Assembly (NCBI RefSeq): GCF_020382885.2
Contig: NC_058496.1
Span: 22,610,501-22,674,500 of the forward strand
DNA: 64,000 bases
Direction of reading: 5' to 3'
Origin: Scatophagus argus
Lineage: Eukaryota > Chordata > Actinopteri > Scatophagidae
The notes under the pieces were generated by a model. It worked only from the letters and a program-made list of their open reading frames with translations, did not search any database and had not been told where the DNA came from. Position numbers and translations under genes: made by a program. Positions 32,901-56,342 of this stretch are shown piece by piece (the stretch's first letter is position 1; every line of letters begins with the position of its first letter).

Positions 32901-35900
32901 AGATATGAAACAATTACTCCTCTGACAAGCACGATTAAATAGAACATATGTCCTCATTCAGCACTAAGTGATTGCATCTGGTGACTCATTTTCTTTATTC
33001 TGACTGAGCTCAACAGATCATTAGTCCATGGAATCACTTATTTGGAAACCAGATGCTTAGTTTGAGTATCCTTTATATCATCAACATCAACTAAATAAAA
33101 AATGTTTTTGTTACACATTAAAAGGACCATTTAACCCAAATGACAACCATATTTTTCCTGGACCTTTAATATAAGACAACCCACCTCATGTAACACACCA
33201 GCTTCTATAGATGTAAATGGCATGTGGCTAACAAGATTAGCAAGAAGCAGCTGTTTTTGCACAGTTCAACCAGTGAGGCAGCTGTTGAGGAGGCAGCACA
33301 AGAGTCTGATTATATCTAAGGATGGTCACATCACATGCTGGACATCATGTGATGTGATGGTCACATCACATGATGTCCAACTTTTGGTTATCTCCTCTTC
33401 ACAACCTTTGATGAAGAGGTTTACAAGCGGATAGCAAACTCAGACTAGAATTACTGCCGTGGTTGTAAGCAGCCTCTGTCATGTTTCAGGTTACATCCGT
33501 TTCTTCATGGATTCCCCTGAAGTTCAGTATTATCAAAACCAATGTGCTTTGGGGGGGTCTATCAGCGTGTAAGTTCATCGAAAAAACAGAAATTCTTTGT
33601 ATGTGTTCACGTGTTTGGCTAATAAAGCTGATTCTGATAGAACACGGGAACAGTAGACAAAGCTTCAGATGTGGTTGTTGCTGCAAAGACGCCACAAATT
33701 CTAAAATGTGGAAGCTTCACACACATCTTCAACCTGACAGCACAGAAGATCTATACAATCAGCACAGTTTCAAGGTTGACACCCAAGCTGAGAGTCACCG
33801 GTTCAGAACCTGAAATATGGTTATGAAAAATGTGAAATATGGTCACAATTTGACCTTCTGTTCCTGCACTATGGTGCTGAATCATGACCAGCAAAAAAGT
33901 GTTTTTGCCATAGACTGTATAAAACATGGATGCAGTCTCCATGATGTCACCAATAGGTATCGGAGGAGCCATTTTTAAGCTCAACATGGTGGCTCCAGCC
34001 AGCCATCATCCACCATCTCAGCAGTGCCAGACCAAATTTCAACCGAATACAAAAATGGTAGCACATTTTTTAACCAGTGCAGGAAACTAACTAACTAAGT
34101 ACAATTATGTAAGTACAATTTTGAGGTACTTGTACATTACTTAAATCTTTCCATTTTCTGCTACTTTATGCTTTGCTACAGATCATAGGCAAATATTGTG
34201 TTTTTTACTCCATTAAGTTTAGTCTGCAACTTTGGTTACTAGTTTTTAGATAATAAAAATTCACAAGCTAGCCAACAAATAAACTATGAAGTACCAGCTT
34301 TACCAGCTTCAGTATTAAAGTGATGAGCACATTATTGAATCAATAATTAGAATCCAGTCATATAACTACTACTTTTGTGGTTTTAATAAGTAAAATTTTT
34401 AATGACTTTCACTTGTGACAGAGAATGTCAGCACTGTGGTATTGCTACTATTATGTAAGTATAAGATCTGAGTACGTCTTCCACCACTGCAATTAACTGC
34501 AGAGCAAGCCATATTATTTGTCTGATATAATCAGTTCATTTGTGCACCCAAGCGGATGTTTGTGCCAAAAGAAATGAAATTCCTTTCAGGTGTTCCTGAG
34601 TTTTTGCATTCACAAGAATAGGATGCACAGACAGACAAAACAAAACAAAAACAAAAAATAGGCCACAGCTATTGCTGGCATGGAAGCATAAATAGCACTT
34701 TAAATAAAACAGTGTGTCTGACAGAGCATCAGAATGGATGGATACAGATAATAAACCAGAAAGGGCAGATTTTTAGTTCTGAACTATGTCGCCGGTGAAT
34801 GTTTTAAAGCTGTGAGTTACTACATCATGGAAAACTCTCAATCATTTACAGCTCGTAAACTGTTGTGTTAGAGTAACATTGCAGTTTTCTTTCCTATCTT
34901 CATTTGAACCTTCAGCTAGTTTCACTATCCTGCAAACTTTACAAAATGAGATGCAAAGATGGCATAAGTACTTCAAGCTGAGCTTACATACCTGCAAGAT
35001 ACACTCCCATGATGCCTAGCACCACCATGAGTTGCACACAGGAGCCCAGCATCCCGCGTATCCGCTCGTGTGCCATCTCAGAGATATAAAGCTGTATGAA
35101 GAGAGAAGTAACAATTATCAAGTAGGAACACCAGAATTAGTGACAACAATCGATCAGCTCTCACTAATATTTTAGGCATTTGTAACAGATGCTTTTACTC
35201 ATAACAGTAAATGAACTTGGAAACCTGGGACTTTCCAAGCAGTGCCAAAATCATTACTGAGTCATTGCTTTATACTGTAACTCATTATTATCTTCTTTGT
35301 TATCAATTAAAATGCTGTTGACTGCCCTGATTAACTGATGAATTATTTCGTCGATAAACAAACAGAGAAAAGTGCACTTCATATATTACCAGCACCCAAC
35401 ATTATTTCCTCAAATTGCTTTTTTTGCCCTATAAATAGTTTAAAACCCAAACATATTCAATTTACAGAGGCAGCGAAACAGCAAATGCTCACACTTGTGG
35501 AGCTAAAACCAGAGAATGTTTTTGCTTTCTAAATACGCAGGTCGATTACTCATCAAAATAGTTGCCAGTTAATTAATTGTCAATCGATTAACTGATTATC
35601 TGATTCATTGCTATAAGCTAGGAAACATGATATACCAGTATTACTGAAAAATCAACACATCACAACATGCCAGTGTTCAGACTGATGACAACAAGGTGAC
35701 AAAAAGGAACTGAAGCAGGAAGGTGTCCAACTTTTTATTTTCTTTTTTTTCTCCAGACAACCAACCAAAGACAATCGAGCGCTTCTTACTGGGACAACTA
35801 GTGAGGTGACTCCGCTGGCGAGGCCGGTGAGCACTCTGCCGAGGTAAAGCATCCACACATTCTGCGCTGCGATGATGATGGTGAAGCCAAAGACGAATGG

Positions 35901-38201
35901 CAGCGAGCAGAACATCAGACTGAGCTTCCTGCCGATCTTCTCCACCATCCAACCGCCCAGCAGCCCACCTGCCGCCGCTCCCACTGTCACTATGGACTGG
36001 GAAATAAACAACAAAGAACTTCAGGAAATGACTTTGACAATTTTATTTGAAATTCACTCTGTATTTGACCAATTCTAATGCTCCAGGTTATGTTCATTAA
36101 AAACTCAGTTTTTAATCTTCTGCATTGATTCAACTGGGACAATTCAACTGTCACTTACCTAACATTAGCTGTGCTCTGAAATGATGCCCTATTCCGTATA
36201 CAGTGCACCATAACAGTCTGTCTTTTTATTTGAGTGTCTAAATGCTGAGTATGGAATTAACACCATGTCTTGTGCTTCAGAACACACAAATGAATTAACT
36301 CTAAAAATATAAATGTATTTCATATATTTATATTTGAATATTATATATTTATAATCTACTTGTTTAAATAACTACTAAATTTTCAGGAAATTCCCTGTTT
36401 TTATCTTTAAACATGTTTCTCTTCATACATAAGAAGCCAAAGTCAACCAAAGTTTTCATTTTTACTTGTGCTTGACTCTTGCTGCTATAAGAGCATTCTT
36501 ATGTGTTTCTTTATACTGTCACTGCAGTGGGCTTTGAACTCAAATGAATCCAGTGAGGTGTGTTTGGACAGCATGTGACGACATAAAACTGCTGATAAGT
36601 TCAAAACACATCGTCCAAAAGCTGTTGTGCTTTGAAGCATGTGATATTAAATCATCATGGCTGCTATCATACCCCAAACCAGGAGGCCTGGTCAATGTCC
36701 AACCGCAGTCGAGGGTCAGTGATGCTGGTAAGTTCAGGGATGGTAGGAGAGCTGTATCCCAACACGAACCCAAAGCTCATGGGACCCAGAACAGACGCAA
36801 ATGTGGCCAGGTATAAATTCTTGTTTTTCACTTTACTGTGGACAGAAAGAGGAACAGATCAGACTGTAGGGGGTAAAGGTCAAAGGTCAGTGAGTTAAAC
36901 ATGGTCAAAAGACAGTTCATCTGTTTTTATATGAACTTTTGTGCATTAAAATGTCCTCAGTTAAAGAGTAGAATATTTTCATCTCTCTGACATTTAGAGG
37001 AGTGAAACTGTGATTTATATTCTGCCTTTGCTCTTTTTGTGTTGCACAGTAGCTACATGTTTTTAATGTTTTGGTATTGACATACAATGAAGTATGTTGT
37101 AGCAAAAATAATACTGACTTTTGTAAAGTGCTTTAAAGAAATATTTTAAACACTAAAAATGATAATGTCTGAGGAAGGAATAAGTGAAGGAAAAGTGAAG
37201 GAGTACATCAACACACTGATCATGTGGTGGGGAAAAATTTGACTGAAAAATGTTCTAGCAAAAATGCTTTTTGATCAGCTCAATTAAGAAAAAATGAGCT
37301 TTTTATCAAGTAAAAATGTTAAAACCCAGTGTGCTAATCCGCTGCTTGTGTTTAATATCAGTGGATCGCTGGTTCGATTCCCCGTCCCGGTGTCCATGGC
37401 TGAGGTACCCTTGAGCAAGGTACCTAACCCCCACTGCTCCCCGGGCGCTGCACGCGGTCGCCCACTGCCCCGGGTTTGCTGTGTGTGTGTGCACGTCACT
37501 TGGGTGGGTTAAATGCAGAGCACAAATTTCGTTGGAGTGAGTTCCCTCCAATGACAAAATATGTCACTTTAAACTTTAAACTTTAACTTTAAACTTTACA
37601 TCTTTGGATTTTGTCTTGGATGTTGTGAAGGACATACTGTTATATACCGTTTAATTGGCTAAATGACAATACATTATATTATGCCATATGTATTATTGCT
37701 GCATGATAAAGCAACTGTGTACAGACTCACTGCATCAAGATAATGATGTCACCTTGACAAAAAATAATACAGTCTTGATTGTTAACTTATAAGACTGGGT
37801 GTTTAGAGTCTACTAATTGATTTTTATATTGTTTAGAAAGATACAAGGTAGACAAAGATAGATCGATAGATGAGTGCATTCAGATTTTTTAAACACGACA
37901 GCATTGCTTGCCTAATGGATGTGATGTAAAGCATGTCTTCTCCAGTAAAATGGCAAAAATTCACAAAACCGTCTGCAGTAATCCATGTTTGTATTTGCTT
38001 GATTGTTTAGCTCAAGATTAGTTTCTATAGAACTCTTGGAGTTGATTAGTTGATATACAGACCGCAGTTACACTGATCCGGTAATTGTATTTGTGTGTTA
38101 ACTGACCTCAGATAAGCATCCTGCTCAGACATGAGTCCTGTAGGGTCTTCATTTCTACTCTCCGCATCCAGCAGTCTACTCCTCTCGCTCTGGATGTCCA
38201 T
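26964..38201 (-). CDS. slc2a8: GLUT8-type facilitated glucose transporter, complete
   Basis: A 12-helix hexose transporter of the SLC2 family, in mammals held in endosomal/lysosomal membranes by a dileucine signal. Coding exons (minus): 38107-38201, 36673-36835, 35790-35996, 34992-35091, 29937-30148, 29475-29624, 28728-28836, 28326-28502, 27583-27728, 26964-27110. They total 1506 nt and 501 aa (human 477). The start gives [15 protein letters not shown], whose ERSRLL (residues 6-11) fits the acidic dileucine pattern. Sugar-transporter signatures are in order: [11 protein letters not shown] after helix 2, PETPRF at about 216-221, [14 protein letters not shown] in helix 7, GWGPIPW at about 409-415 and PETKGKTLE at about 481-489. 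Similarity to remembered GLUT8 is higher than to GLUT6. Intron 4 is large (about 4.8 kb) and holds a LINE and a hairpin. The start and exons 1-2 lie inside a tandem duplication, so a second copy of both exists at 46914-48213. Confidence 0.95.
30790..32227 (-). mobile_element. Rex1/CR1-like LINE, truncated
   Basis: A 400-codon minus-strand frame (31025-32227) encodes reverse transcriptase. It has [11 protein letters not shown] (motif A), [15 protein letters not shown] (motif B), then FSND at the catalytic YxDD position, and SYLG-type DYRYLGVV and VVCWGSS blocks. The first aspartate of the DD pair reads as asparagine, so this copy is probably dead. The 3' end at about 30790-30830 carries the GATA-rich and CTTTATTGATCCC tail usual for fish LINEs of this kind. 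The 5' part is missing. It lies in slc2a8 intron 4, same strand as the gene. Confidence 0.88.
33339..33379. repeat. Perfect 19-bp inverted repeat with 3-nt loop
   Basis: Left arm TGGACATCATGTGATGTGA at 33339-33357, loop TGG, and exact complement at 33361-33379. The motif GATGGTCACATCACATG also appears twice in direct orientation, at 33321 and in the hairpin itself. It lies in slc2a8 intron 4; function unknown. Confidence 0.9.
33591..33638 (+). repeat. Short L2-type LINE tail
   Basis: AATTCTTTGTATGTGTTCAC followed by GGCTAATAAAGCTGATTCTG, the 3' end of an L2-clade LINE. Confidence 0.55.
33908..34025 (+). repeat. Dispersed teleost repeat fragment
   Basis: Begins GACTGTATAAAACATGGATG and contains CATGATGTCACCAATAGGT. 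A related fragment, GACTGTATAAGAAATAGCAG with CATGATGTCACCCATAGGT, is at about 57259-57330, so both come from one dispersed family. Confidence 0.6.
37361..37597 (+). repeat. tRNA-derived SINE present only in unit 1
   Basis: Contains the B box GGTTCGATTCC and CCCTTGAGCAAGG and CCCCGGGCGC blocks, then a TTTAAACTTTAAACT-type tail. It is the same family as 4224-4500, with its head truncated. Unit 2 has 11 bases (ATTAACTGTAC) at the matching place (47601-47611). It lies in slc2a8 intron 1. Confidence 0.8.
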
Positions 38202-38787
38202 ACTCACAGTAGTGCTTTCTGGTGTTTATTCTCTTTTCTTGTTCACCTTTTACATGGATCGCAGGTCAGGCAAGAATAAAACCTGAGAAAATCAACAGTG
38301 CCTACGGTACAAACTGGCAACCGTGAGGCCACACAAGGACGAAATCGATAGAACGGGATTATACAATATCACAGGTAGACCTGGAGTAATCATCGGCCAT
38401 TGTAGTTGTTAGAAGCTGACCAGTTAGTCATCGTCAGAGGAATCCAGCATTTTTGTTCCTCTACCGGCGGCCAACTTGCTTTGTCAACATTTCAGTCAGC
38501 TGACTACCGTATGTGTCCGTAATTTCCCATTTTCAAAATAAAGGTCTTTACGTAGCTGTTAGAAAGAGCCAAAGACCTGTGTGCACTTTCTTACATATGA
38601 ACTACAAATGTGCGGTTTAAAGGCTGAAACACCCGACTGTCAAAAAGTAGTTCTGCATTCACATTTCTCACTGACAAGCTAAAGTAAGCCTCCATAAACT
38701 AAAGCCTTTTCTAGTAGTAAAACAGTTAGCTATCAACCATAACGTTACACGTTTAACATCATACATCATTGAAATACTTAAAAAAGA

Positions 38788-38819
<32 letters not shown>

Positions 38820-39107
38820 CTATTTAAAGTGTATATCTTTGGCACAACAATATTAACAGCGGTGAACCCCAAATCTTACATGGTTTGACGTTTTCTTTGC
38901 GGGGCCGAAACAGCGCCGGAAGTGACACGAAGTTCCCTCAAAGTAGAAACTCTTTGAGCGTTACGTATCGAAGTTGGTTTCCATGGTGACAAAACACGGT
39001 TGACGTTACCTAGCAAGTATAAAATTCAAGCAAAGCGAAATTTGGTCTACACAGAGCAAAAGTGACTAAAGGAATTGAAAAACCGCATCAGCCATTTAAA
39101 CAACACA
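38202..39107. promoter_or_regulatory. Divergent slc2a8 / ttc16 promoter, unit 1
   Basis: Only 906 bp separate the slc2a8 start (leftward) and ttc16 start (rightward). An ETS core CCGGAAGTG is at 38916-38924 and an X-box-like RFX site GTTTCCATGGTGAC is at 38977-38990, about 120 bp before the ttc16 start. The surrounding 120 bp are CpG-rich. RFX X-boxes drive ciliary genes (established), which suits a TPR protein expressed in ciliated cells. An (ATT)n run lies at about 38789-38817. Confidence 0.65.
38977..38990 (+). promoter_or_regulatory. ttc16: X-box (RFX binding) motif, unit 1
   Basis: GTTTCCATGGTGAC agrees with the palindromic RFX pattern of GTNNCC and GGNNAC half sites joined by AT. The identical site in unit 2 is at 48992-49005. 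Confidence 0.6.
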
Positions 39108-42100
39108 ATGGACACTGAGGAGATAAATGAACAATCGGTAAGCGCCTGCTTGTTTCGCTGTAATAGCAAAGCGGCTTACAAAAACTTACAACTAAGGGCC
39201 AAAAATTAGTATATCTGGCAGTGAGCCCAGAAAACTGCACATGAACAAAACTGGATGCCAAAATCTGCAGTGATTTCTGATAAGTAGACAGACCTTACTT
39301 ACTCAATATACTTTTAAAACTGTTTATCTTTCTAGGAAGGTAATAGTTAACAGTTTTAATTGTCACCAAGTCTAATCTTTCCTTATTTGCCGGTTGGCAT
39401 GCTTCAGGACCACTGCAGTTTTTCGCTATGTTTATTTTCAAATCTTTGATTTATTTAATGTCAAACTTTTTGTCAACCAGCAGGCAGGAGAGCACAGATT
39501 TTTTCCCACCGCTGTGTCAGAAGAGGAGCCGAATGAGGCCAGGAGAAAAAGCACCCTCAAGCAGATTTCCAATACAGTCTGTCTGACACCAGGACAGAAA
39601 CGTCCACAAAGACCAGATCTACAGGGGAGCCTCATCATTCGGAGCAAGGCTGCAGAGCAGTGAGATTCATGAATGAAACAAAGATTTTCGCATTTTCAGG
39701 AGTAAATGAGAGAGTTCTACTGTAGCCTCACTTACTACAGCCATGTGTTGTGAACATGTACTGTATCATTTTGCTTCAGGATTTACACTTCAGTTTAAGT
39801 TGAAGTGTGTTTTCTGCAAGAGAAGTCATAGTTGTGTTCCAAATATTGTCAAACCAAGTGGAAGGGCTTTCTTTGTTGAGTGTATGTACAAAGTTGGAAC
39901 GTGACATCAATCACATTTTTTTCAGATGGAATAATGCTGTGATGTTTTACTTTGCAGTTACAGAAACGGAAAAGAGGCCATGGGGACGTCTCAGTTTGAG
40001 AAGGCTGTGATCTGTTTCTCCAAAGCCATTACACTGAAGCCTAAACAGGTGCTGAACCAGATAACCACTGACACCTATGTACTGCCCAACTGGTGGTTTC
40101 TCTTTTCCTGTGTTCACCTTCATTCTATACCAATAACCAATAACAACTGCTGTTGTGTGTTTTAGCCTCAGCTGTATGTGAGCCAGGGGGAGGCCTACCT
40201 CCAGATGTGTGACTTCCAGTCAGCAGCAGCCTGTTATAAACGGGCCTGTCTCCTGGAGCCCGGAGCCCACAGCACACGTTTGGCTTTCATCTACTTTCTC
40301 CAGGTAAGGGTCTTCACATCACTCCTCTGTTCTGGCTGGGGCTTAGTCTTACTGTTATATGTACTCTAGCAATAAACCACCACTGAACTATGACTACAGG
40401 AAAACATATTACTGTGATCATAAAACAATGCATTATATAAAACTGTCAAGTGTGATGGTGTTATGTTAACCTTTTAGTTGATAAATTAGATCCTTTAGCA
40501 GTAGCAGAATAGATTATTTCTGTATTTATGGTCAAAAAAGATCTCGACCAATCAAGAGCAGAGCAATGAGCAAATGAAGAGACCTGAGCCAGTTTCCCAA
40601 TTGAGTTTGTGCAGAAAAAATGAAATTGTGTTGTAAAGGACAATTTAGAGCAGTTTTTAGCTTAAAAACGGGTGACTGAGCACTGATCTCTTGTGAATTG
40701 ATTTCAGTGAATTAAATCAAGGAATAGTGGAAGAGATGCAAATGTGATTTGAATGGTGAGCCTTCTGTTTCCTGTTGTCCTCAGGGCCAGTGTTTGTTGG
40801 ACCACGGCCTTTACCTGGAGGCTACCTGGATCAAAGCTTCTGAGGTGAAGCCCGGCTGCAGAGCCTACGAGGTCAGAAGGTCAGAAACAACCCATCCATC
40901 CATTTTCTATACCGCTTATCCGTCAGGGTCGCGGGGGAGCTGGAGCCTATCCCAGCTGACTACGGGCGAGAGGCGGGGTTCACCCTGGACTGGTCGCCAG
41001 TCAATCGCAGGGCCAACACACAAAGACAGACGACCACACACTCTCACACTCACACCTAGGGGCAATTTAGAGTAGCCAATTAACCTAATGTGCATGTTTT
41101 TGGTATTGTGGGAGGAAGCCGGAGTACCCGGAGAAAACCCACGCAGGCACAGGGAGAACATGCAAACTCCACACAGAAGGGCCCAGACCGGGATTCGAAC
41201 CTGGAACCCTCTTGCTATGAGGCGACAGTGCTAACCACTGCACCACCATGCCGCCCGTCAGAAACAACCTATATACAAAATGTTTTGCAGAGCTATGGTG
41301 TCATATTTCTATGGTATATGTAGTTGTACATATTGATATACTCATATGGGACACGTACTAATATATCATATATATACATCATATTTACAATCTACATTTT
41401 TTCATGGTTATCATTATAGTCTTGGTTCTAATTCACACACATGTTGTTCATTAATGTATTTTGTACCTTGTGTCTCAGCCTGGCCTGTCTGATAGCTGCA
41501 GGTAACCACTCTGAGAGTCTGATGCTGGTGAACAACTGGATGGTGACAGATACTCCCAACTCTGATCTTTACATCTTCAGAGCCCGGCTGCACAAACGGC
41601 TCAACCAGGTCACAACTACAGGGACATCTTGCTCTTTGAATGCCTAAATTAGGCAGTATATACTCTTTGCATGTCAGGCAGTTAGCTGCTGCTGTGAAGG
41701 ATCAAGCAGTTGACAGCAGAAAGATCTAAAAGCGCAGCGTTGTAAAGGAAGCCCAGGCGACAAAAAGTAACAAGGAAATCTTGAGTTTCTCCTTGTAAAG
41801 TAATTTCTAGGGTGAATAACAAAATAAAAAATTACAATTATAATAGTACATAATAGCAGATAATAACGATATCTTGCAGTATAATGTCATGACATGACAA
41901 TCTGGTGTATCTAAATATTTAGACTTTAGAAAAATTATTTGGTACAGACTGGGTTAGCACTCATGCTGAGCACTCATACATAAAGTTGCATGTAGTATGT
42001 TAAATATACTGTACTTACTGTAAACATACAATCAGTGGTCTCCCTTCTACCCAGATATCACAATGTTATGAAGACGTGAAGTCTGCATTGACACTGAACC

Positions 42101-45100
42101 CAGCGTGTCCGAAGGCCAGAGCCATGCTGCTGCAGCTGCAGGAAACTGCCGAATGGGCCAGACAAATGGCTGTGCACAGATCTTTGACTGGCCAGCTGCC
42201 TGAATCCCTCTGCATGATCAATATCGCTATAGAGAACTGCACAGACGACGGACGCCTCTACCTGTTCAGGTGAGTCCGACCAATATGAAACACAGACAAG
42301 CCGCAAGTAGAAAGTGTGGTGAAACCAGTAGAACACATCTCTCAATTACAAAGGAACTGCAAAGTTAACAAAATGTAAGAAAGTACTTAGATCTTGTACT
42401 TAAATAAAAGTAGCAATACCATAATGTGGAAATACTGTATAACAAGTGAAATCCATGCATTTAGTTTTTTTCCTGAGTGAAAGTAAAAAAAAATTAGCAT
42501 GAATAAATTAATTTTAGTGGGCCTCTTTAATCTGAACAACAGCCAAAAAACAGCTTTAAGTGTGAACATTTTGTTAGGCAGAACCAGCAACTGAGTTCTT
42601 TTTAGATTCACTCCATTAACAAAATTACCACAATTAAAAATATTGCTCTGTTAAATAACTTCTGCAGTACTTTGGGTCAGTCCGTAACAATTCAGTATAA
42701 TCAGTTCTTTTAAGTTCATTTCAGTTTAATGTTACCTTTTTGAGATAAATATGATTCTGTTTATTTTTGCTTAGATGTATTTAATGTCAATTCTGTTTCA
42801 TTCACTCATTCTCTGTCCATCAGAGCGAGTCTGTACCGGCAACTACATGTGTTCCAAGCAGCCTTCGACGATGCCGTCCGGGCCCTGAAGATGAGCGAGG
42901 AGGATGAGGTGGAGAAGGAGGTCGGAGGTCAGGCAGCTGCCAGAAATGAGAAGGACGAGCGTAATTCCATGGAAGAGGATGCAGAGCTCGAGCTGGTTCA
43001 CATTTACAATGATTCTGCTGTTGAGCGCTTCAGCAGAGGCCTCTACACTGAGGCAATTCGGCTTCTTAACGACACCATCAGTGTGGAGAAACGCCTGGCA
43101 GGCCTGTACCTGAACCGAGGAGGTGAGGCAAGAGACACTTGCTCTGTTAGTGAGTGAGTGTTGTGAATGTGTGTGTGTGTGTGTGTGCACTCGGGATCTG
43201 CTGCTGTGGGAACAAAATCCTAACTTATTGTTGTCTCTTTTAAACTGAAAGTCTGTAAATTCAGAAAAGACAAAGCATCTAATTTGACATTTGCGAAGTT
43301 TTTCCTTGTTGCTGAATGTACAGAACACAAAGTGTACGTATGAGATGAGGTGGCACTGAAACTGTCAGACAGGTGTAACCTGACAAACCTGATCAGCATT
43401 TCACCACAGTGCAGTATGAAGAACTTGTCCAGCCTTAGTAAATGAACAGGTTGTACTGTATCACCACTTTCCAATAACCATGAACCCTCGGCTGTGTTGA
43501 TTTTCTCTCTCTCTAAACACACGAGCGTAGAAATGATTATTGGTTGACAGAAAATTAACAACAGTTTTGATAATTGATTAATCATTAATAGGTTGTAGCT
43601 TCTCTTATGTGATTGGCTGAATTTCACTGTTTGTTATGGTTCTGAAGATCTTTAGGTTTTGGCTGTTTGTCGGATAAAGCAAGATATATGTCACTTTTGT
43701 CTGCGGGAAGTTGTGACGGGCATTTTTGTTTGTGCGTGTGTACCTGTGTGTGTGTTAGACTGTTTCTTTTTACAGAGTGAATTTTATTTAGCTCTGGCTG
43801 ACTACCAGCAGGCTGACGAGATGACGCAGCTTGATAACCCTGCTATCCTGCTCCGCCTCGCTGTCCTCCACAACACACTGGGTTCTTTCAGCTTCCGAGA
43901 TGGGTCAGGACCGCACAAACACATTTACACAGAGGAACCTATAGAGAAAGGTCTTCCAGTCTTGATCAGATGTTTTTTTGTGTGTATTTGTATGTCTGCA
44001 TCTACAGGAAATTCCGAGAGGCAGCTGAAATGTTTTCCTGGGCCATCCACTACAACCCTACAGTCAGTCAGTACTATAAGAACAGGTCAAAGGCCTTCCA
44101 AAAGCTGCTGAACTTTAAGGCTGCCAGACAGGACTTCGTCTGCATGCTGCTCCTGGATCCCACCAACGACGAAGTCAGAGCTTCATCTCACCCTCCAGAT
44201 CCACTGACATTGTCTTTGTGATTTTAATGACAATGATGTTTTTATTCAATGAGATGAACATAATTTTAACTTTTGCATGTCATGTTGAGTCCACCAGTAA
44301 GTGCAACCCAACAGTATTGAGATACTGATGCTATATATCACAATTTATAGCTGCATATTAATATTCAGTTTTTCTTCTATATATTGTGGATATTAATCCT
44401 TAGGTAAAAGCCCCTCATATAATGCAATCATTTAATGCAAAAGAGTCTATATGTGTAATGCAAACTTTGTGGTTTATTTCAGATAATGTGATTAAAATGT
44501 GATTCTGCATGCTGGCTATTCTGATCCAGATGTTTTCTCTGGTGTATTGTAGTAGTAAATTGTGTGTGTATGTCTGTGTATTTGTGCATGTAGGTGCCTG
44601 CTCTGCTCACGCATCTGTTCCCTCGCTGCAGCGTGTCAGATGTTTTGTTCAGTCGAGAAGGACAAGCAATGAGAGTTCATCTGATGAACATCATCCAGGC
44701 TTGCAGCTCTTTCGAACAACAAAGGTCAGCAACTTGAAAATTCCCTGAAAGACTGGTCACATGTGCTTTACACTGACAGACCTTGGGACAGATGCACTGC
44801 AGCTTAATGTTTTACAAGTTAAAAAATAATTATGTCTCTTCTGTACCTGGGAGATTCTGAGCGCAAGCAGTTTACTGCTGGTGCCAGCTGCAAAACTAGA
44901 TGACACTGAATATTTTTATCGACTCATTGTCAATGCATAAAGATACTTCCAAATTAAGACTGCCTGTAACTGCAGGGTAGTGACTTGTATTAATGTGTTC
45001 TCAGACCGAGTGAGACACTCCAGAAGATGACTCTGGCTGATGAGAGCATACCGAGCCAATCAGAGGAGCCATCTGAAGCAGTGGAGCTGAAGCTGTGTCT

Positions 45101-45161
45101 AAGCCAACAGCAGTTGCAAATAATTGATAATAGTCCTCTTCAGATATTTACAGAATATTAA
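39108..45161 (+). CDS. ttc16: TTC16-type tetratricopeptide repeat protein, copy 1
   Basis: Coding exons: 39108-39137, 39481-39659, 39958-40048, 40166-40303, 40785-40879, 41479-41608, 42055-42269, 42824-43122, 43759-43903, 44008-44173, 44594-44724, 45005-45161. They total 1776 nt, 591 aa, in phase throughout. After a short N-terminal tail, TPR helices run from about residue 68 (HYRNGKEAMGTSQFEKAV, then GEAYLQMCDFQSAAACYKRA) to about 495 (KFREAAEMFSWAIHYNP). An acidic insert EEDEVEKEV lies at about 317-325. Order and wording follow human TTC16 as I remember it. TPRs bind protein partners; the exact role of TTC16 is not known, but expression in ciliated tissue and the promoter X-box suggest a ciliary link (inference). 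Exon 5 uses the donor after 40879: the alternative GT at 40872 would put exon 6 out of frame. Exon 2 has a NAGNAG acceptor, so one glutamine is optional. Confidence 0.9.
40893..41256 (-). repeat. tRNA-derived SINE in ttc16 intron 5, unit 1
   Basis: Same family as 15155-15519 (minus-strand A box TGGTGCAGTGG, B box GGTTCGAATCC, tetranucleotide tail). It has a perfect 13-bp target-site duplication GTCAGAAACAACC at 40880-40892 and 41257-41269. The left copy begins exactly at the GT of the exon 5 splice donor. Confidence 0.88.
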
Positions 45162-46338
45162 TGAAGGATCACAATAACAGGGCTACTGTTGTTTATAGCC
45201 ATGTAATAAAACATTTCTGAAAGCATATTTAATTGTAAAAGAAATATTCTAAACAACTTCAAGATACTTATATAACTAGTGAGACAATATTTCAATTTTG
45301 ACAAAACCACATTTAAAACGTTTGAGTATGTGAATCTTAGTCTTTGCCTGTAAATGCTTAAAAAGGAGATTGCTGCATGCTTCGATTTGCAGCATGATAT
45401 AATTACCTCTTTAATTTTCACACATTTCATCCAAACAAATGCCATACTTGCTACCAAAAGCTATGTACAATTTGTGAGTGACAGTGAGCTATGAAATGTG
45501 ATTCTGACAACAATTCTCATTTGTGTGAAAGTCAGATTTTTATTTGATTGTATTGTAATGTCTTAATTCAAGTAGCAAAAAGATGCTAAAAGCAAATTTA
45601 TAACAGAAACTCAAAGATGACAAGTTGATCGTTTCTCATCTCATTTCCTAATGCCACAGCTACAAAGTGGATGTTGAGCTTTGAAACATAAGGTGATGTT
45701 GGCATGATGCTGAACTACAGATGTTCTTGTGTGTTGACTGTGGCAGGGTAAGAAAATGGTTTCGATTATTTCTAAATAAGTACAAAGCTGTACACCATAC
45801 TGATCCACACCTCACAAAGCACCACCCACCAGGTGGTCTTTCTGGAGTCCAGGATTTTAGATGCTCTTGAAAGTCTGTCTCAGAGATGATGGTGGCAATA
45901 AATTGATGTCTGAGTGTTGTGTTTTTGTATGCATTTCCCTTTGTTTCAGGACAGAATGATCCAAGTTTGATTTACTTGCTACACACATTGTGAATCACTT
46001 TCAACGATACCTTTTACACTGTGAGTTTAACCACAACAATGATTCTTTAACTCGCACTTATTGTTTGAACCTGGACAGTAGAGGAAATCATTCAGCACAA
46101 GAACTGCACACTCTTTTATGTGGACAAACTATAAAAATAAACTATAGGGACAAACATTACACATTGGACCTACATAATCTTCAAACACAAAGGATAAGAC
46201 AGCAGTGGTAACACTTTTCCAATATATGGTGGTACTATCCTTTAATTAGGATGTTATTACATACTGTAATCCAATAGGTGGCAGCACAGGCACAGTTTTA
46301 AAGTGAAGGCACTCAGTTTTGAGACCTAGAGTGAGGAG
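45162..46338. other. ttc16 copy 1 3' flank up to the duplication junction
   Basis: No coding exon recognised. It holds the 3' UTR with polyadenylation signal, then AT-rich sequence. Another AATAAA lies at 45897-45902. The small frame at 45990-46211 has no recognisable domain. Confidence 0.6.
45205..45210 (+). terminator. ttc16: Candidate polyadenylation signal of ttc16 copy 1
   Basis: AATAAA 44 nt after the stop codon; a second one lies at 45897. The matching signal of copy 2 is at 55209-55214. Confidence 0.55.
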
Positions 46339-46913
46339 TAAAAACTCAGTTTTTAATCTTCTGCATTGATTCAACCGGGACAATTCAACTGTCACTTACC
46401 TAACATTAGCTGTGCTCTGAAATGATGCCCTATTCCGTATACAGTGCACCATAACAGTCTGTCTTTTTATTTGAGTGTCTAAATGCTGAGTATGGAATTA
46501 ACACCATGTCTTGTGCTTCAGAACACACAAATGAATTAACTCTAAAAATATAAATGTATTTCATACATTTATATTTGAATATTATATATTTATAATCTAC
46601 TTGTTTAAATAACTACTAAATTTTCAGGAAATTCCCTGTTTTTATCTTTAAACATGTTTCTCTTCATACATAAGAAGCCAAAGTCAACCAAAGTTTTCAT
46701 TTTTACTTGTGCTTGACTCTTGCTGCTATAAGAGCATTCTTATGTGTTTCTTTATACTGTCACTGCAGTGGGCTTTGAACTCAAATGAATCCAGTGAGGT
46801 GTGTTTGGACAGCATGTGACGACATAAAACTGCTGATAAGTTCAAAACACATCGTCCAAAAGCTGTTGTGCTTTGAAGCATGTGATATTAAATCATCATG
46901 GCTGCTATCATAC

Positions 46914-48213
46914 CCCAAACCAGGAGGCCTGGTCAATGTCCAACCGCAGTCGAGGGTCAGTGATGCTGGTAAGTTCAGGGATGGTAGGAGAGCTGTATCC
47001 CAACACGAACCCAAAGCTCATGGGACCCAGAACAGACGCAAATGTGGCCAGGTATAAATTCTTGTTTTTCACTTTACTGTGGACAGAAAGAGGAACAGAT
47101 CAGACTGTAGGGGGTAAAGGTCAAAGGTCAGTGAGTTAAACATGGTCAAAAGACAGTTCATCTGTTTTTATATGAACTTTTGTGCATTAAAATGTCCTCA
47201 GTTAAAGAGTAGAATATTTTCATCTCTCTGACATTTAGAGGAGTGAAACTGTGATTTATATTCTGCCTTTGCTCTTTTTGTGTTGCACAGTAGCTACATG
47301 TTTTTAATGTTTTGGTATTGACATACAATGAAGTATGTTGTAGCAAAAATAATACTGACTTTTGTAAAGTGCTTTAAAGAAATATTTTAAACACTAAAAA
47401 TGATAATGTCTGAGGAAGGAATAAGTGAAGGAAAAGTGAAGGAGTACATCAACACACTGATCATGTGGTGGGGAAAAATTTGACTGAAAAATGTTCTAGC
47501 AAAAATGCTTTTTGATCAGCTCAATTAAGAAAAAATGAGCTTTTTATCAAGTAAAAATGTTAAAACCCAGTGTGCTAATCCGCTGCTTGTGTTTAATATC
47601 ATTAACTGTACATCTTTGGATTTTGTCTTGGATGTTGTGAAGGACATACTGTTATATACCGTTTAATTGGCTAAATGACAATACATTATATTATGCCACA
47701 TGTATTATTGCTGCATGATAAAGCAACTGTGTACAGACTGACTGCATCAAGATAATGATGTCACCTTGACAAAAAATAATACAGTCTTGATTGTTAACTT
47801 ATAAGACTGGGTGTTTAGAGTCTACTAATTGATTTTTATATTGTTTAGAAAGATACAAGGTAGACAAAGATAGATCGATAGATGAGTGCATTCAGATTTT
47901 TTAAACACGACAGCATTGCTTGCCTAATGGATGTGATGTAAAGCATGTCTTCTCCAGTAAAATGGCAAAAATTCACAAAACCGTCTGCAGTAATCCATGT
48001 TTGTATTTGCTTGATTGTTTAGCTCAAGATTAGTTTCTATAGAACTCTTGGAGTTGATTAGTTGATATACAGACCGCAGTTACACTGATCCGGTAATTGT
48101 ATTTGTGTGTTAACTGACCTCAGATAAGCATCCTGCTCAGACATGAGTCCTGTAGGGTCTTCATTTCTACTCTCCGCATCCAGCAGTCTACTCCTCTCGC
48201 TCTGGATGTCCAT
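46914..48213 (-). pseudogene. slc2a8: Orphan slc2a8 exons 1 and 2 (duplicated 5' fragment)
   Basis: Exon 1 copy 48119-48213 and exon 2 copy 46914-47076 keep the start codon, reading frame and splice sites of slc2a8. Exons 3-10 were not duplicated. The fragment would encode about 86 residues (through helix 1) before running into the 3' flank of ttc16 copy 1, antisense. It is an expressed-looking but partial gene. Alternatively its exon 2 donor at 46913 could splice over about 10.9 kb to slc2a8 exon 3 (acceptor next to 35996), giving a full-length transporter from a second promoter. Splicing to the first-unit exon 2 would break the frame. Confidence 0.85.
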
Positions 48214-48799
48214 ACTCACAGTAGTGCTTTCTGGTGTTTATTCTCTTTTCTTGTTCACCTTTTACATGGATCGCAGGTCAGGCAAGAATAAAACCTGAGA
48301 AAATCAACAGTGCCTACGGTACAAACTGGCAACCGTGAGGCCACACAAGGACGAAATCGATAGAACGGGATTATACAATATCACAGGTAGACCTGGAGTA
48401 ATCATCGGCCATTGTAGTTGTTAGAAGCTGACCAGTTAGTCATCGTCAGAGGAATCTAGCATTTTTGTTCCTCTACCGGCGGCCAACTTGCTTTGTCAAC
48501 ATTTCAGTCAGCTGACTACCGTATGTGTCCGTAATTTCCCATTTTCAAAATAAAGGTCTTTACGTAGCTGTTAGAAAGAGCCAAAGACCTGTGTGCACTT
48601 TCTTACATATGAACTACAAATGTGCGGTTTAAAGGCTGAAACACCCGACTGTCAAAAAGTAGTTCTGCATTCACATTTCTCACTGACAAGCTAAAGTAAG
48701 CCTCCATAAACTAAAGCCTTTTCTAGTAGTAAAACAGTTAGCTATCAACCATAACGTTACACGTTGAACATCATACATCATTGAAATACTTAAAAAAGA

Positions 48800-48834
<35 letters not shown>

Positions 48835-49122
48835 CTATTTAAAGTGTATATGTTTGGCACAACAATATTAACAGCGGTGAACCCCAAATCTTACATGGTT
48901 TGACGTTTTCTTTGCGGGGCCGAAACAGCGCCGGAAGTGACACGAAGTTCCCTCAAAGTAGAAACTCTTTGAGCGTTACGTATCGAAGTTGGTTTCCATG
49001 GTGACAAAACACGTTTGACGTTACCTAGCAAGTATAAAATTCAAGCAAAGCGAAATTTGGTCTACACAGAGCAAAAGTGACTAAAGGAATTGAAAAACCG
49101 CATCAGCCATTTAAACAACACA
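48214..49122. promoter_or_regulatory. Divergent promoter, unit 2
   Basis: Duplicate of 38202-39107 with the ETS core and the X-box (48992-49005) unchanged. Nearby differences from unit 1 include one base just right of the X-box (G in unit 1, T in unit 2) and one extra ATT unit in the run at about 48801-48832. Confidence 0.62.
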
Positions 49123-52100
49123 ATGGACACTGAGGAGATAAATGAACAATCGGTAAGCGCCTGCTTGTTTCGCTGTAATAGCAAAGCGGCTTACAAAAAC
49201 TTACAACTAAGGGCCAAAAATTAGTATATCTGGCAGTGAGCCCAGAAAACTGCACATGAACAAAACTGGATGCCAAAATCTGCAGTGATTTCTGATAAGT
49301 AGACAGACCTTACTTACTCAATATACTTTTAAAACTGTTTATCTTTCTAGGAAGGTAATAGTTAACAGTTTTAATTGTCACCAAGTCTAATCTTTCCTTA
49401 TTTGCCGGTTGGCATGCTTCAGGACCACTGCAGTTTTTCGCTATGTTTATTTTCAAATCTTTGATTTATTTAATGTCAAACTTTTTGTCAACCAGCAGGC
49501 AGGAGAGCACAGATTTTTTCCCACCGCTGTGTCAGAAGAGGAGCCGAATGAGGCCAGGAGAAAAAGCACCCTCAAGCAGATTTCCAATACAGTCTGTCTG
49601 ACACCAGGACAGAAACGTCCACAAAGACCAGATCTACAGGGGAGCCTCATCATTCGGAGCAAGGCTGCAGAGCAGTGAGATTCATGAATGAAACAAAGAT
49701 TTTCGCATTTTCAGGAGTAAATGAGAGAGTTCTACTGTAGCCTCACTTACTACAGCCATGTGTTGTGAACATGTACTGTATCATTTTGCTTCAGGATTTA
49801 CACTTCAGTTTAAGTTGAAGTGTGTTTTCTGCAAGAGAAGTCATAGTTGTGTTCCAAATATTGTCAAACCAAGTGGAAGGGCTTTCTTTGTTGAGTGTAT
49901 GTACAAAGTTGGAACGTGACATCAATCACATTTTTTTCAGATGGAATAATGCTGTGATGTTTTACTTTGCAGTTACAGAAACGGAAAAGAGGCCATGGGG
50001 ACGTCTCAGTTTGAGAAGGCTGTGATCTGTTTCTCCAAAGCCATTACACTGAAGCCTAAACAGGTGCTGAACCAGATAACCACTGACACCTATGTACTGC
50101 CCAACTGGTGGTTTCTCTTTTCCTGTGTTCACCTTCATTCTATACCAATAACCAATAACAACTGCTGTTGTGTGTTTTAGCCTCAGCTGTATGTGAGCCA
50201 GGGGGAGGCCTACCTCCAGATGTGTGACTTCCAGTCAGCAGCAGCCTGTTATAAACGGGCCTGTCTCCTGGAGCCCGGAGCCCACAGCACACGTTTGGCT
50301 TTCATCTACTTTCTCCAGGTAAGGGTCTTCACATCACTCCTCTGTTCTGGCTGGGGCTTAGTCTTACTGTTATATGTACTCTAGCAATAAACCACCACTG
50401 AACTATGACTACAGGAAAACATATTACTGTGATCATAAAACAATGCATTATATAAAACTGTCAAGTGTGATGGTGTTATGTTAACCTTTTAGTTGATAAA
50501 TTAGATCCTTTAGCAGTAGCAGAATAGATTATTTCTGTATTTATGGTCAAAAAAGATCTCGACCAATCAAGAGCAGAGCAATGAGCAAATGAAGAGACCT
50601 GAGCCAGTTTCCCAATTGAGTTTGTGCAGAAAAAATGAAATTGTGTTGTAAAGGACAATTTAGAGCAGTTTTTAGCTTAAAAACGGGTGACTGAGCACTG
50701 ATCTCTTGTGAATTGATTTCAGTGAATTAAATCAAGGAATAGTGGAAGAGATGCAAATGTGATTTGAATGGTGAGCCTTCTGTTTCCTGTTGTCCTCAGG
50801 GCCAGTGTTTGTTGGACCACGGCCTTTACCTGGAGGCTACCTGGATCAAAGCTTCTGAGGTGAAGCCCGGCTGCAGAGCCTACGAGGTCAGAAGGTCAGA
50901 AACAACCCATCCATCCATTTTCTATACCGCTTATCCGTCAGGGTCGCGGGGGAGCTGGAGCCTATCCCAGCTGACTACGGGCGAGAGGCGGGGTTCACCC
51001 TGGACTGGTCGCCAGTCAATCGCAGGGCCAACACACAAAGACAGACGACCACACACTCTCACACTCACACCTAGGGGCAATTTAGAGTAGCCAATTAACC
51101 TAATGTGCATGTTTTTGGTATTGTGGGAGGAAGCCGGAGTACCCGGAGAAAACCCACGCAGGCACAGGGAGAACATGCAAACTCCACACAGAAGGGCCCA
51201 GACCGGGATTCGAACCTGGAACCCTCTTGCTATGAGGCGACAGTGCTAACCACTGCACCACCATGCCGCCCGTCAGAAACAACCTATATACAAAATGTTT
51301 TGCAGAGCTATGGTGTCATATTTCTATGGTATATGTAGTTGTACATATTGATATACTCATATGGGACACGTACTAATATATCATATATATACATCATATT
51401 TACAATCTACATTTTTTCATGGTTATCATTATAGTCTTGGTTCTAATTCACACACATGTTGTTCATTAATGTATTTTGTACCTTGTGTCTCAGCCTGGCC
51501 TGTCTGATAGCTGCAGGTAACCACTCTGAGAGTCTGATGCTGGTGAACAACTGGATGGTGACAGATACTCCCAACTCTGATCTTTACATCTTCAGAGCCC
51601 GGCTGCACAAACGGCTCAACCAGGTCACAACTACAGGGACATCTTGCTCTTTGAATGCCTAAATTAGGCAGTATATACTCTTTGCATGTCAGGCAGTTAG
51701 CTGCTGCTGTGAAGGATCAAGCAGTTGACAGCAGAAAGATCTAAAAGCGCAGCGTTGTAAAGGAAGCCCAGGCGACAAAAAGTAACAAGGAAATCTTGAG
51801 TTTCTCCTTGTAAAGTAATTTCTAGGGTGAATAACAAAATAAAAAATTACAATTATAATAGTACATAATAGCAGATAATAACGATATCTTGCAGTATAAT
51901 GTCATGACATGGCAATCTGGTGTATCTAAATATTTAGACTTTAGAAAAATTATTTGGTACAGACTGGGTTAGCACTCATGCTGAGCACTCATACATAAAG
52001 TTGCATGTAGTATGTTAAATATACTGTACTTACTGTAAACATACAATCAGTGGTCTCCCTTCTACCCAGATATCACAATGTTATGAAGACGTGAAGTCTG

Positions 52101-55100
52101 CATTGACACTGAACCCAGCGTGTCCGAAGGCCAGAGCCATGCTGCTGCAGCTGCAGGAAACTGCCGAATGGGCCAGACAAATGGCTGTGCACAGATCTTT
52201 GACTGGCCAGCTGCCTGAATCCCTCTGCATGATCAATATCGCTATAGAGAACTGCACAGACGACGGACGCCTCTACCTGTTCAGGTGAGTCCGACCAATA
52301 TGAAACACAGACAAGCCGCAAGTAGAAAGTGTGGTGAAACCAGTAGAACACATCTCTCAATTACAAAGGAACTGCAAAGTTAACAAAATGTAAGAAAGTA
52401 CTTAGATCTTGTACTTAAATAAAAGTAGCAATACCATAATGTGGAAATACTGTATAACAAGTGAAATCCATGCATTTAGTTTTTTTCCTGAGTGAAAGTA
52501 AAAAAAAATTAGCATGAATAAATTAATTTTAGTGGGCCTCTTTAATCTGAACAACAGCCAAAAAAACAGCTTTAAGTGTGAACATTTTGTTAGGCAGAAC
52601 CAGCAACTGAGTTCTTTTTAGATTCACTCCATTAACAAAATTACCACAATTAAAAATATTGCTCTATTAAATAACTTCTGCAGTACTTTGGGTCAGTCCG
52701 TAACAATTCAGTATAATCAGTTCTTTTAAGTTCATTTCAGTTTAATGTTACCTTTTTGAGATAAATATGATTCTGTTTATTTTTGCTTAGATGTATTTAA
52801 TGTCAATTCTGTTTCATTCACTCATTCTCTGTCCATCAGAGCGAGTCTGTACCGGCAACTACATGTGTTCCAAGCAGCCTTCGACGATGCCATCCGGGCC
52901 CTGAAGATGAGCGAGGAGGATGAGGTGGAGAAGGAGGTCGGAGGTCAGGCAGCTGCCAGAAATGAGAAGGACGAGCGTAATTCCATGGAAGAGGATGCAG
53001 AGCTCGAGCTGGTTCACATTTACAATGATTCTGCTGTTGAGCGCTTCAGCAGAGGCCTCTACACTGAGGCAATTCGGCTTCTTAACGACACCATCAGTGT
53101 GGAGAAACGCCTGGCAGGCCTGTACCTGAACCGAGGAGGTGAGGCAAGAGACACTTGCTCTGTTAGTGAGTGAGTGTTGTGAATGTGTGTGTGTGTGTGT
53201 GCACTCGGGATCTGCTGCTGTGGGAACAAAATCCTAACTTATTGTTGTCTCTTTTAAACTGAAAGTCTGTAAATTCAGAAAAGACAAAGCATCTAATTTG
53301 ACATTTGCGAAGTTTTTCCTTGTTGCTGAATGTACAGAACACAAAGTGTACGTATGAGATGAGGTGGCACTGAAACTGTCAGACAGGTGTAACCTGACAA
53401 ACCTGATCAGCATTTCACCACAGTGCAGTATGAAGAACTTAGTAAATGAACAGGTTGTACTGTATCACCACTTTCCAATAACCATGAACCCTCGGCTGTG
53501 TTGATTTTCTCTCTCTCTAAACACACGAGCGTAGAAATGATTATTGGTTGACAGAAAATTAACAACAGTTTTGATAATTGATTAATCATTAATAGGTTGT
53601 AGCTTCTCTTATGTGATTGGCTGAATTTCACTGTTTGTTATGGTTCTGAAGATCTTTAGGTTTTGGCTGTTTGTCGGATAAAGCAAGATATATGTCACTT
53701 TTGGCTGCGGGAAGTTGTGACGGGCATTTTTGTTTGTGCGTGTGTACCTGTGTGTGTGTTAGACTGTTTCTTTTTACAGAGTGAATTTTATTTAGCTCTG
53801 GCTGACTACCAGCAGGCTGACGAGATGACGCAGCTTGATAACCCTGCTATCCTGCTCCGCCTCGCTGTCCTCCACAACACACTGGGTTCTTTCAGCTTCC
53901 GAGATGGGTCAGGACCGCACAAACACATTTACACAGAGGAACCTATAGAGAAAGGTCTTCCAGTCTTGATCAGATGTTTTTTTGTGTGTATTTGTATGTC
54001 TGCATCTACAGGAAATTCCGAGAGGCAGCTGAAATGTTTTCCTGGGCCATCCACTACAACCCTACAGTCAGTCAGTACTATAAGAACAGGTCAAAGGCCT
54101 TCCAAAAGCTGCTGAACTTTAAGGCTGCCAGACAGGACTTCGTCTGCATGCTGCTCCTGGATCCCACCAACGACGAAGTCAGAGCTTCATCTCACCCTCC
54201 AGATCCACTGACATTGTCTTTGTGATTTTAATGACAATGATGTTTTTATTCAATGAGATGAACATAATTTTAACTTTTGCATGTCATGTTGAGTCCACCA
54301 GTAAGTGCAACCCAACAGTATTGAGATACTGATGCTATATATCACAATTTATAGCTGCATATTAATATTCAGTTTTTCTTCTATATATTGTGGATATTAA
54401 TCCTTAGGTAAAAGCCCCTCATATAATGCAATCATTTCATGCAAAAGAGTCTATATGTGTAATGCAAACTTTGTGGTTTATTTCAGATAATGTGATTAAA
54501 ATGTGATTCTGCATGCTGGCTATTCTGATCCAGATGTTTTCTCTGGTGTATTGTAGTAGTAAATTGTGTGTGTATGTCTGTGTATTTGTGCATGTAGGTG
54601 CCTGCTCTGCTCACGCATCTGTTCCCTCGCTGCAGCGTGTCAGATGTTTTGTTCAGTCGAGAAGGACAAGCAATGAGAGTTCATCTGATGAACACCATCC
54701 AGGCTTGCAGCTCTTTCAAACAACAAAGGTCAGCAACTTGAAAATTCCCTGAAAGACTGGTCACATGTGCTTTACACTGACAGACCTTGGGACAGATGCA
54801 CTGCAGCTTAATGTTTTACAAGTTAAAAAATAATTATGTCTCTTCTGTACCTGGGACATTCTGAGCGCAAGCAGTTTACTGCTGGTGCCAGCTGCAAAAC
54901 TAGATGACACTGAATATTTTTATCGACTCATTGTCAATGCATAAAGATACTTCCAAATTAAGACTGCCTGTAACTGCAGGGTAGTGACTTGTATTAATGT
55001 GTTCTCAGACCGAGTGAGACACTCCAGAAGATGACTCTGGCTGATGAGAGCATACCGAGCCAATCAGAGGAGCCATCTGAAGCAGTGGAGCTGAAGCTGT

Positions 55101-55165
55101 GTCTAAGCCAACAGCAGTTGCAAATAATTGATAATAGTCCTCTTCAGATATTTACAGAATATTAA
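49123..55165 (+). CDS. ttc16: TTC16-type tetratricopeptide repeat protein, copy 2
   Basis: Coding exons: 49123-49152, 49496-49674, 49973-50063, 50181-50318, 50800-50894, 51494-51623, 52070-52284, 52840-53138, 53763-53907, 54012-54177, 54598-54728, 55009-55165. They give the same 591-residue length with all splice sites kept and no stops. I see three coding differences from copy 1, all changing the residue: V311I (base 52892), I529T (base 54695) and E537K (base 54718). Domains, the intron 5 SINE and the candidate polyadenylation signal match copy 1. Both copies look able to make protein. It may be a true second gene or the other allele placed in tandem by the assembler. Confidence 0.88.
50908..51271 (-). 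repeat. tRNA-derived SINE in ttc16 intron 5, unit 2
   Basis: Copy of the SINE at 40893-41256 carried by the duplication, with the same 13-bp target-site duplication at 50895-50907 and 51272-51284. The insertion therefore predates the duplication. Confidence 0.88.
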
Positions 55166-55208
55166 TGAAGGATCACAATAACAGGGCTACTGTTGTTTAT
55201 AGCCATGT

Positions 55209-55214
55209 AATAAA
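55209..55214 (+). terminator. ttc16: Candidate polyadenylation signal of ttc16 copy 2
   Basis: AATAAA 44 nt after the stop codon, identical to copy 1. Confidence 0.55.
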
Positions 55215-56342
55215 ACATTTCTGAAAGCATATTTAATTGTAAAAGAAATATTCTAAACAACTTCAAGATACTTATATAACTAGTGAGACAATATTTCAAT
55301 TTTGACAAAACCACATTTAAAACGTTTGAGTATGTGAATCTTAGTCTTTGCCTGTAAATGCTTAAAAAGGAGATTGCTGCATGCTTCGATTTGCAGCATG
55401 ATATAATTACCTCTTTAATTTTCACACATTTCATCCAAACAAATGCCATACTTGCTACCAAAAGCTATGTACAATTTGTGAGTGACAGTGAGCTATGAAA
55501 TGTGATTCTGACAACAATTCTCATTTGTGTGAAAGTCAGATTTTTATTTGATTGTATTGTAATGTCTTAATTCAAGTAGCAAAAAGATGCTAAAAGCAAA
55601 TTTATAACAGAAACTCAAAGATGACAAGTTGATCGTTTCTCATCTCATTTCCTAATGCCACAGCTACAAAGTGGATGTTGAGCTTTGAAACATAAGGTGA
55701 TGTTGGCATGATGCTGAACTACAGATGTTCTTGTGTGTTGACTGTGGCAGGGTAAGAAAATGGTTTCGATTATTTCTAAATAAGTACAAAGCTGTACACC
55801 ATACTGATCCACACCTCACAAAGCACCACCCACCAGGTGGTCTTTCTGGAGTCCAGGATTTTAGATGCTCTTGAAAGTCTGTCTCAGAGATGATGGTGGC
55901 AATAAATTGATGTCTGAGTGTTGTGTTTTTGTATGCATTTCCCTTTGTTTCAGGACAGAATGATCCAAGTTTGATTTACTTGCTACACACATTGTGAATC
56001 ACTTTCAACGATACCTTTTACACTGTGAGTTTAACCACAACAATGATTCTTTAACTCGCACTTATTGTTTGAACCTGGACAGTAGAGGAAATCATTCAGC
56101 ACAAGAACTGCACACTCTTTTATGTGGACAAACTATAAAAATAAACTATAGGGACAAACATTACACATTGGACCTACATAATCTTCAAACACAAAGGATA
56201 AGACAGCAGTGGTAACACTTTTCCAAAATATGGTGGTACTATCCTTTAATTAGGATGTTATTACATACTGTAATCCAATAGGTGGCAGCACAGGCACAGT
56301 TTTAAAATGAAGGCACTCAGTTTTGAGACCTAGAGTGAGGAG

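Follow-up and report, generated by a model that had tools for sequence, protein, structure and literature searches.

A 10.0-kb segment of the Scatophagus argus genome has probably undergone a real and recent tandem segmental duplication, which copied a complete gene for a TTC16-like tetratricopeptide repeat (TPR) protein together with the 5' end of a neighbouring SLC2A8-like sugar transporter gene. The window analysed is a 64-kb stretch (G000:C4:22610501-22674500) of an assembly of 570.7 Mb in 48 contigs, and the evidence base throughout is one haploid assembly sequence. Comparing the window with itself by BLAST, and the units with each other by MAFFT alignment, reveals a single large repeat pair, consisting of two nearly identical units that lie head-to-tail and directly adjacent to each other:

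36098-46338, plus strand: unit 1, 10,241 bp (self-BLAST, MAFFT)
46339-56342, plus strand: unit 2, 10,004 bp (self-BLAST, MAFFT)

These boundaries and sizes are exactly those proposed in the initial annotation, which had also put the divergence at about 0.2%. Of the 10,000 aligned columns, 20 hold a substitution (0.20%). Two of these fall in the tail of a short interspersed element (SINE); the other 18 are spread over ~10.0 kb (0.18%, Poisson 95% interval 0.11-0.28%) and comprise 10 transitions and 8 transversions. The largest indel is the SINE itself, a net 229 bp found in unit 1 only, and there are four small ones: a 3-bp step in a TAT microsatellite, a 2-bp TG step, a single homopolymer base and 10 bp missing in unit 2. 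A chance match is ruled out for a repeat of such size and identity. There is no N anywhere in the window, and an Rfam scan of it returned nothing at the gathering threshold, so that no known RNA family marks the unit. At mutation rates of 1e-8 to 3.5e-9, the duplication would be 0.9 to 2.6 x 10^5 generations old, an estimate that is too high if the copies were born as different alleles and too low if they have been converted since. The longest stretch free of differences between the units measures 2,898 bp (38999-41897 versus 49014-51912; P 0.04 under uniform placement) and possibly reflects gene conversion, or chance. As a separate observation, a 370-bp sequence occurs three times in the window (15155-15524, 40892-41261 and 50907-51276), and the two copies inside the units share 98.1% identity with the one at 15155. 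The sequence predates the duplication as part of the unit; it may be a mobile element, and its open frame has no Pfam match.

The gene that is copied whole was modelled by hand from reading frames and splice sites, giving two predicted genes of the same structure:

39108-45161, plus strand: TTC16-like TPR gene, copy 1, 12 coding exons, 590 aa, with start and stop codons and GT/AG at all introns
49123-55165, plus strand: TTC16-like TPR gene, copy 2, same structure, 590 aa, intact

The predicted product matches Pfam TPR_1 at 7.2e-21, above the cut-off, and has 69 matches in the PDB. The best 60 of these 69 are all TPR proteins, natural or engineered, and none among those 60 is named TTC16; the name TTC16 is therefore one that we assume for this gene. 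Searching the 570.7-Mb assembly with the protein gave 22 matches, all of them within the duplication: 11 exons were hit in each unit, the 10-codon first exon being the one not matched in this search. The reading frames are thus intact in both gene models, and no third copy was found. The two copies differ at three coding positions, each of which changes an amino acid (V310I, I528T and E536K in copy 2 relative to copy 1). Three nonsynonymous changes out of three would be expected with a probability of 0.42 under neutrality and of 0.05 at an omega of 0.2. This looks a little more like relaxed duplicates than constrained alleles, with the proviso that three changes are too few to conclude much.

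Next to the TPR gene, in the opposite orientation, lies a gene for a sugar transporter. Two minus-strand segments, 29829-30161 and 35655-36020, match Pfam Sugar_tr (sugar transporter, major facilitator superfamily) at 7.9e-12 and 3.3e-15, respectively. The start of the protein has no PDB match at 1e-10 and two weak matches to sugar transporters at 0.001, the best at 2.4e-5. We take the gene to be SLC2A8-like (GLUT8), 'member 8' being an assumed designation. Its exons are distributed over the duplication as follows:

35790-35996, minus strand: SLC2A8-like exon 3, outside the duplication, Sugar_tr
36673-36835, minus strand: SLC2A8-like exon 2, unit 1
38107-38201, minus strand: SLC2A8-like coding exon 1, unit 1, adjoining the rest of the gene
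38202-39107, unstranded: 906-bp stretch between the two start codons, a putative divergent promoter, with its unit 2 copy at 48214-49122
46914-47076, minus strand: orphan SLC2A8-like exon 2, unit 2, identical in sequence, donor site intact
48119-48213, minus strand: orphan SLC2A8-like exon 1, unit 2, identical in sequence to that of unit 1

Exons 1 and 2 lie inside the unit and exon 3 lies outside it, which places the left breakpoint within intron 2 of this gene. The divergent start codons, only 906 bp apart, suggest a promoter shared by the two genes; its two copies (38202-39107 and 48214-49122) differ by 4 substitutions and one TAT step. The initial annotation had described the copied content as a whole gene plus a promoter and a gene fragment. 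The gene models agree with this, the promoter being a putative one. Judging from this arrangement, the SLC2A8-like gene would keep its own 5' end, while a second putative promoter with exons 1 and 2 sits 10 kb farther upstream. If the orphan exons of unit 2 were transcribed and spliced to exon 3, they would supply the same coding start.

The largest difference between the units can be traced to a single insertion:

37361-37598, plus strand: 5'-truncated SINE with an ACTTTAA-type tail, unit 1 only, intron 1 of the SLC2A8-like gene

The SINE stands in place of 9 bp that are kept at 47602-47610 of unit 2 (read by eye), and no target-site duplication was seen by eye around it. Other members of the family were drawn from the genome as 30 copies in 29 fetched loci (one locus holding two), the best-scoring of 1,734 first-look candidates, 40 of which were scored. 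All 30 of the other copies displayed reach further 5' and have a tRNA-like head, of which one copy retains only ~32 bases; the unit 1 SINE is without this head. Because the other copies have a longer 5' end and unit 2 keeps the 9 bp, we infer that unit 2 represents the older, empty state and that unit 1 gained the SINE. Across the family, identity to the unit 1 copy is 97-100% for the 39 other matches that were scored. The family has probably been active recently in this genome.

The point at which the two units meet, together with a small structure at the left breakpoint, provides what can be learned of the mechanism:

46336-46345, unstranded: novel junction, GAG followed by TAA, seen in the self-comparison and in a genome search with the 400 bp around it
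36098-36114, plus strand: perfect inverted repeat TAAAAAC-TCA-GTTTTTA, with a 7-bp stem and a 3-nt loop, copied at 46339-46355

At the left flank, ...TTCAT is followed by TAAAAACTC; at the junction, ...GAGGAG is followed by TAAAAACTC; and at the right end, ...GAGGAG is followed by TAATCTG. As the initial annotation had noted, the trinucleotide TAA is common to all three places (36098, 46339 and 56343), and the adjoining bases differ on both sides. There are no inserted bases at the junction and hence no templated insertion, a feature that would be telling if present and is not required for microhomology-mediated break-induced replication (MMBIR) or fork stalling and template switching (FoSTeS). 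Among 200,000 pairs of positions drawn at random from the window, 6.1% share three or more bases. The 3-bp microhomology could by itself be chance and is at best suggestive. The left breakpoint coincides with the first base of the inverted repeat, and edges of inverted repeats with a 7-bp stem and a 3-nt loop lie within 3 bp of just 0.24% of window positions. This fits a mechanism that starts at the repeat and is treated here as a hint.

Unequal exchange between repeats at the two ends, or non-allelic homologous recombination (NAHR), is an explanation to which we give almost no credence. A 10-bp word, ACTCAGTTTT, does occur within 35 bp of both breakpoints, a coincidence found in ~0.6% of up to 5,000 random pairs. 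This word is set aside because it is out of register, and the product of the event keeps both copies of it. The longest identical word between the two ends, within 300 bp on either side, is 13 bp and likewise out of register; the match in register amounts to 3 bp, and no repeat that spans the two ends is seen on self-comparison. NAHR was accordingly rejected as contradicted by the junction sequence, which has no long in-register homologous repeats. The initial annotation had also found recombination between flanking repeats unsupported, and this part of its account stands. Its step from TAA to a microhomology-mediated or replication-based event is weaker than it was made to appear, given the frequency of such matches by chance and the fact that plain end joining looks alike. 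One junction cannot separate end joining, microhomology-mediated end joining (MMEJ) and template switching. In the same vein, PMC4056370 describes the signatures of duplication mechanisms as hard to separate. The same source reports that in 41% of 644 Drosophila copy-number variants the ends are simple and carry 2 bp or more of microhomology, and that breakpoints are enriched for non-B DNA.

A sequence of events can nevertheless be proposed. A break or a stalled fork may have arisen within intron 2 of the SLC2A8-like gene, at the small inverted repeat; end joining or template switching may then have connected this point with one downstream of the TTC16-like gene, the two having just three bases in common. 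After the duplication, the truncated SINE would have entered unit 1, unit 2 probably lost 10 intronic bp, and the ~18 point differences would have arisen. The mechanism, the order of events, the direction of the 10-bp change and the expression of the copies are all matters that we infer.

Several points tell against a real duplication formed in this manner. The junction microhomology has a chance probability of 0.061. When loops of 3-8 nt are allowed, the window positions near an inverted-repeat edge rise to 1.0%; the fold of the left-end repeat is unexceptional (z -1.31, with 22 of 200 shuffles equally stable; z -0.75 at the junction), and the hairpin was sought post hoc, once the sequence had been read. 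A divergence of 0.18% and the presence or absence of a SINE are also what alleles show, the 10-kb unit is about the length of a long read, and a chimeric read or wrong gap filling could yield a gapless false join. Incorrect gap filling has been described as a source of unsupported joins (PMC9516828). These last points converge on a heterotype false duplication, in which the assembler or a gap-filling step places the two alleles of a single-copy locus one after the other. The microsatellite steps fit alleles as well, average read lengths are given as 10-35 kb (PMC8081667), the same order as the unit, and false duplications are reported to be common (PMC8081667, PMC9516828). The initial annotation was right to name this alternative and to call the differences allele-like. 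However, it is disfavoured by the join itself, which has no gap, unlike most published false duplications (PMC9516828; a gap is usual there and not obligatory), and which offers no sequence overlap usable by an assembler. Copies that are 0.2% apart should merge easily in assemblers, and a gapless 3-bp join would give no overlap unless a read crosses it. The divergence is also low, whereas heterotype errors grow with heterozygosity (PMC8081667), and all three coding differences change amino acids, which is less expected of constrained alleles, albeit from three events only. With no gap and next to no homology at the join, the haplotype artefact is the less likely reading, and we consider it unlikely.

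Genome-wide searches also speak for a real duplication. The 400 bp around the junction are found whole once in the genome, and the halves otherwise match only where unit 2 ends and unit 1 begins. The first 903 bp of the unit are found twice, both times at this locus, and no spare haplotig was seen. For the right flank (2,000 bp), there is one full-length match among the 40 matches listed, and for the left flank (3,098 bp), one among 43 matches (40 of 1,472 candidates scored); the others are short, repeat-like pieces in both cases. A check of 38 loci (36 picked by similarity and 2 by position), 139,050 bases in all, likewise turned up no N. A homotype false duplication, in which the copies differ by sequencing errors, was rejected because the differences do not have that character: there are 18 substitutions, a SINE of a genome-wide family and a 10-bp indel, with only one homopolymer indel. 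The duplication may be real and yet polymorphic, carried on one of the sequenced animal's two chromosomes or present in some individuals. This overlaps with a real tandem duplication and does not exclude it. The low divergence makes the duplication young enough to segregate, there is no counter-evidence, and a single haploid sequence looks alike for a fixed and a polymorphic duplication; we place the chance of polymorphism somewhat short of even.

The wider surroundings of the locus include dmrt-like genes. Of seven DM-domain exons located in the genome, three share the contig of the window (C4) and lie within 47 kb of each other: 25,026,474, 25,037,538 and 25,073,753, which by their sequence we take to be dmrt2-like, dmrt3-like and dmrt1-like, respectively. 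The duplication lies ~2.4 Mb from these exons. Their close spacing probably places the fish outside the sciaenids, in which dmrt2a is reported apart from dmrt3 (PMC9871315). Some residues of the dmrt1-like exon (C4:25073753) are unusual, such as HKHFCNW in place of the usual HKRFCHW, and the domain is followed by ...VTLILPVSTASLS in place of ALRRQQ. Such oddities could come from a splice border, or the exon could belong to a diverged copy. In the sciaenid Argyrosomus japonicus, a sex-linked region of 2.8 Mb centred on dmrt1 is reported to contain slc2a8 and ttc16, both of which the authors list as highly expressed in human testis (PMC11675234). The linkage of the locus to the dmrt genes is probably ancestral gene order. 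A much bolder reading would join these elements: a young copy-number change of a testis-associated TTC16-like gene, along with a duplicated divergent promoter that could raise SLC2A8-like output without copying the gene, linked to dmrt1 on a possible sex chromosome and sex-linked in this species. We regard this combination as highly unlikely. No report of a duplicated TTC16 in fish was found in the titles and abstract starts of the open-licence papers listed by searches on ttc16 and slc2a8.

Other features of the window can be noted briefly. To the right of the units is a gene with a DUF3522 domain, presumably myomaker-like, and to the left of the sugar transporter is a HIRA-like gene, with a Hira/TUP1-like domain exon at 9255-9680 on the minus strand (Pfam Hira, 1.5e-15). 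Retroelement reverse-transcriptase frames (Pfam RVT_1) are found at 31025-32245 on the minus strand, open over 406 aa, and at 11572-11898 on the plus strand. A segment pair, 14757-15117 and 61089-61478, is 79.5% identical, and its second member overlaps a weak DDE transposase-like match below the Pfam cut-off.

If the duplication is real, it is a young one resolved to the base with both gene copies intact, useful for following the early fate of duplicates and for asking whether an intact gene can be served by a promoter and first exons detached from it. As an artefact, the locus would exemplify a false gene gain with no gap, a type of error by which counts of gene families are misled. The location of the duplication on the chromosome of the dmrt1-like gene makes sex linkage a worthwhile question.

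Set against known systems, the locus looks like an ordinary young tandem duplication, well resolved at the base level, and its extras are modest: both gene copies are intact, and an additional 5' end lies upstream. The head-to-tail copies, the clean junction, the three shared bases and the lack of an insertion are those of non-recurrent tandem duplications with short microhomology (non-homologous end joining, MMEJ, FoSTeS/MMBIR), from which it shows no difference in kind. The heterotype false duplications described for the Vertebrate Genomes Project (VGP; Ko et al. 2022, PMC9516828) share the allele-like copies and the doubled gene and gene fragment, whereas this locus has no gap, low divergence and a homology-poor join. 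In sciaenids, recent duplications have been reported near dmrt1 (PMC9871315), and the likeness lies in recent tandem gene copies in the same wider neighbourhood. The genes involved are different, however: cfap157, dmrt1 and dmrt3 were duplicated in sciaenids (in Collichthys lucidus, also a block), whereas here it is the TTC16-like gene and the SLC2A8-like 5' end, 2.4 Mb away. The sciaenid dmrt2a is also described as separated from dmrt3 (PMC9871315), whereas here one exon each of the dmrt1-, dmrt3- and dmrt2-like genes lies within the 47-kb cluster.

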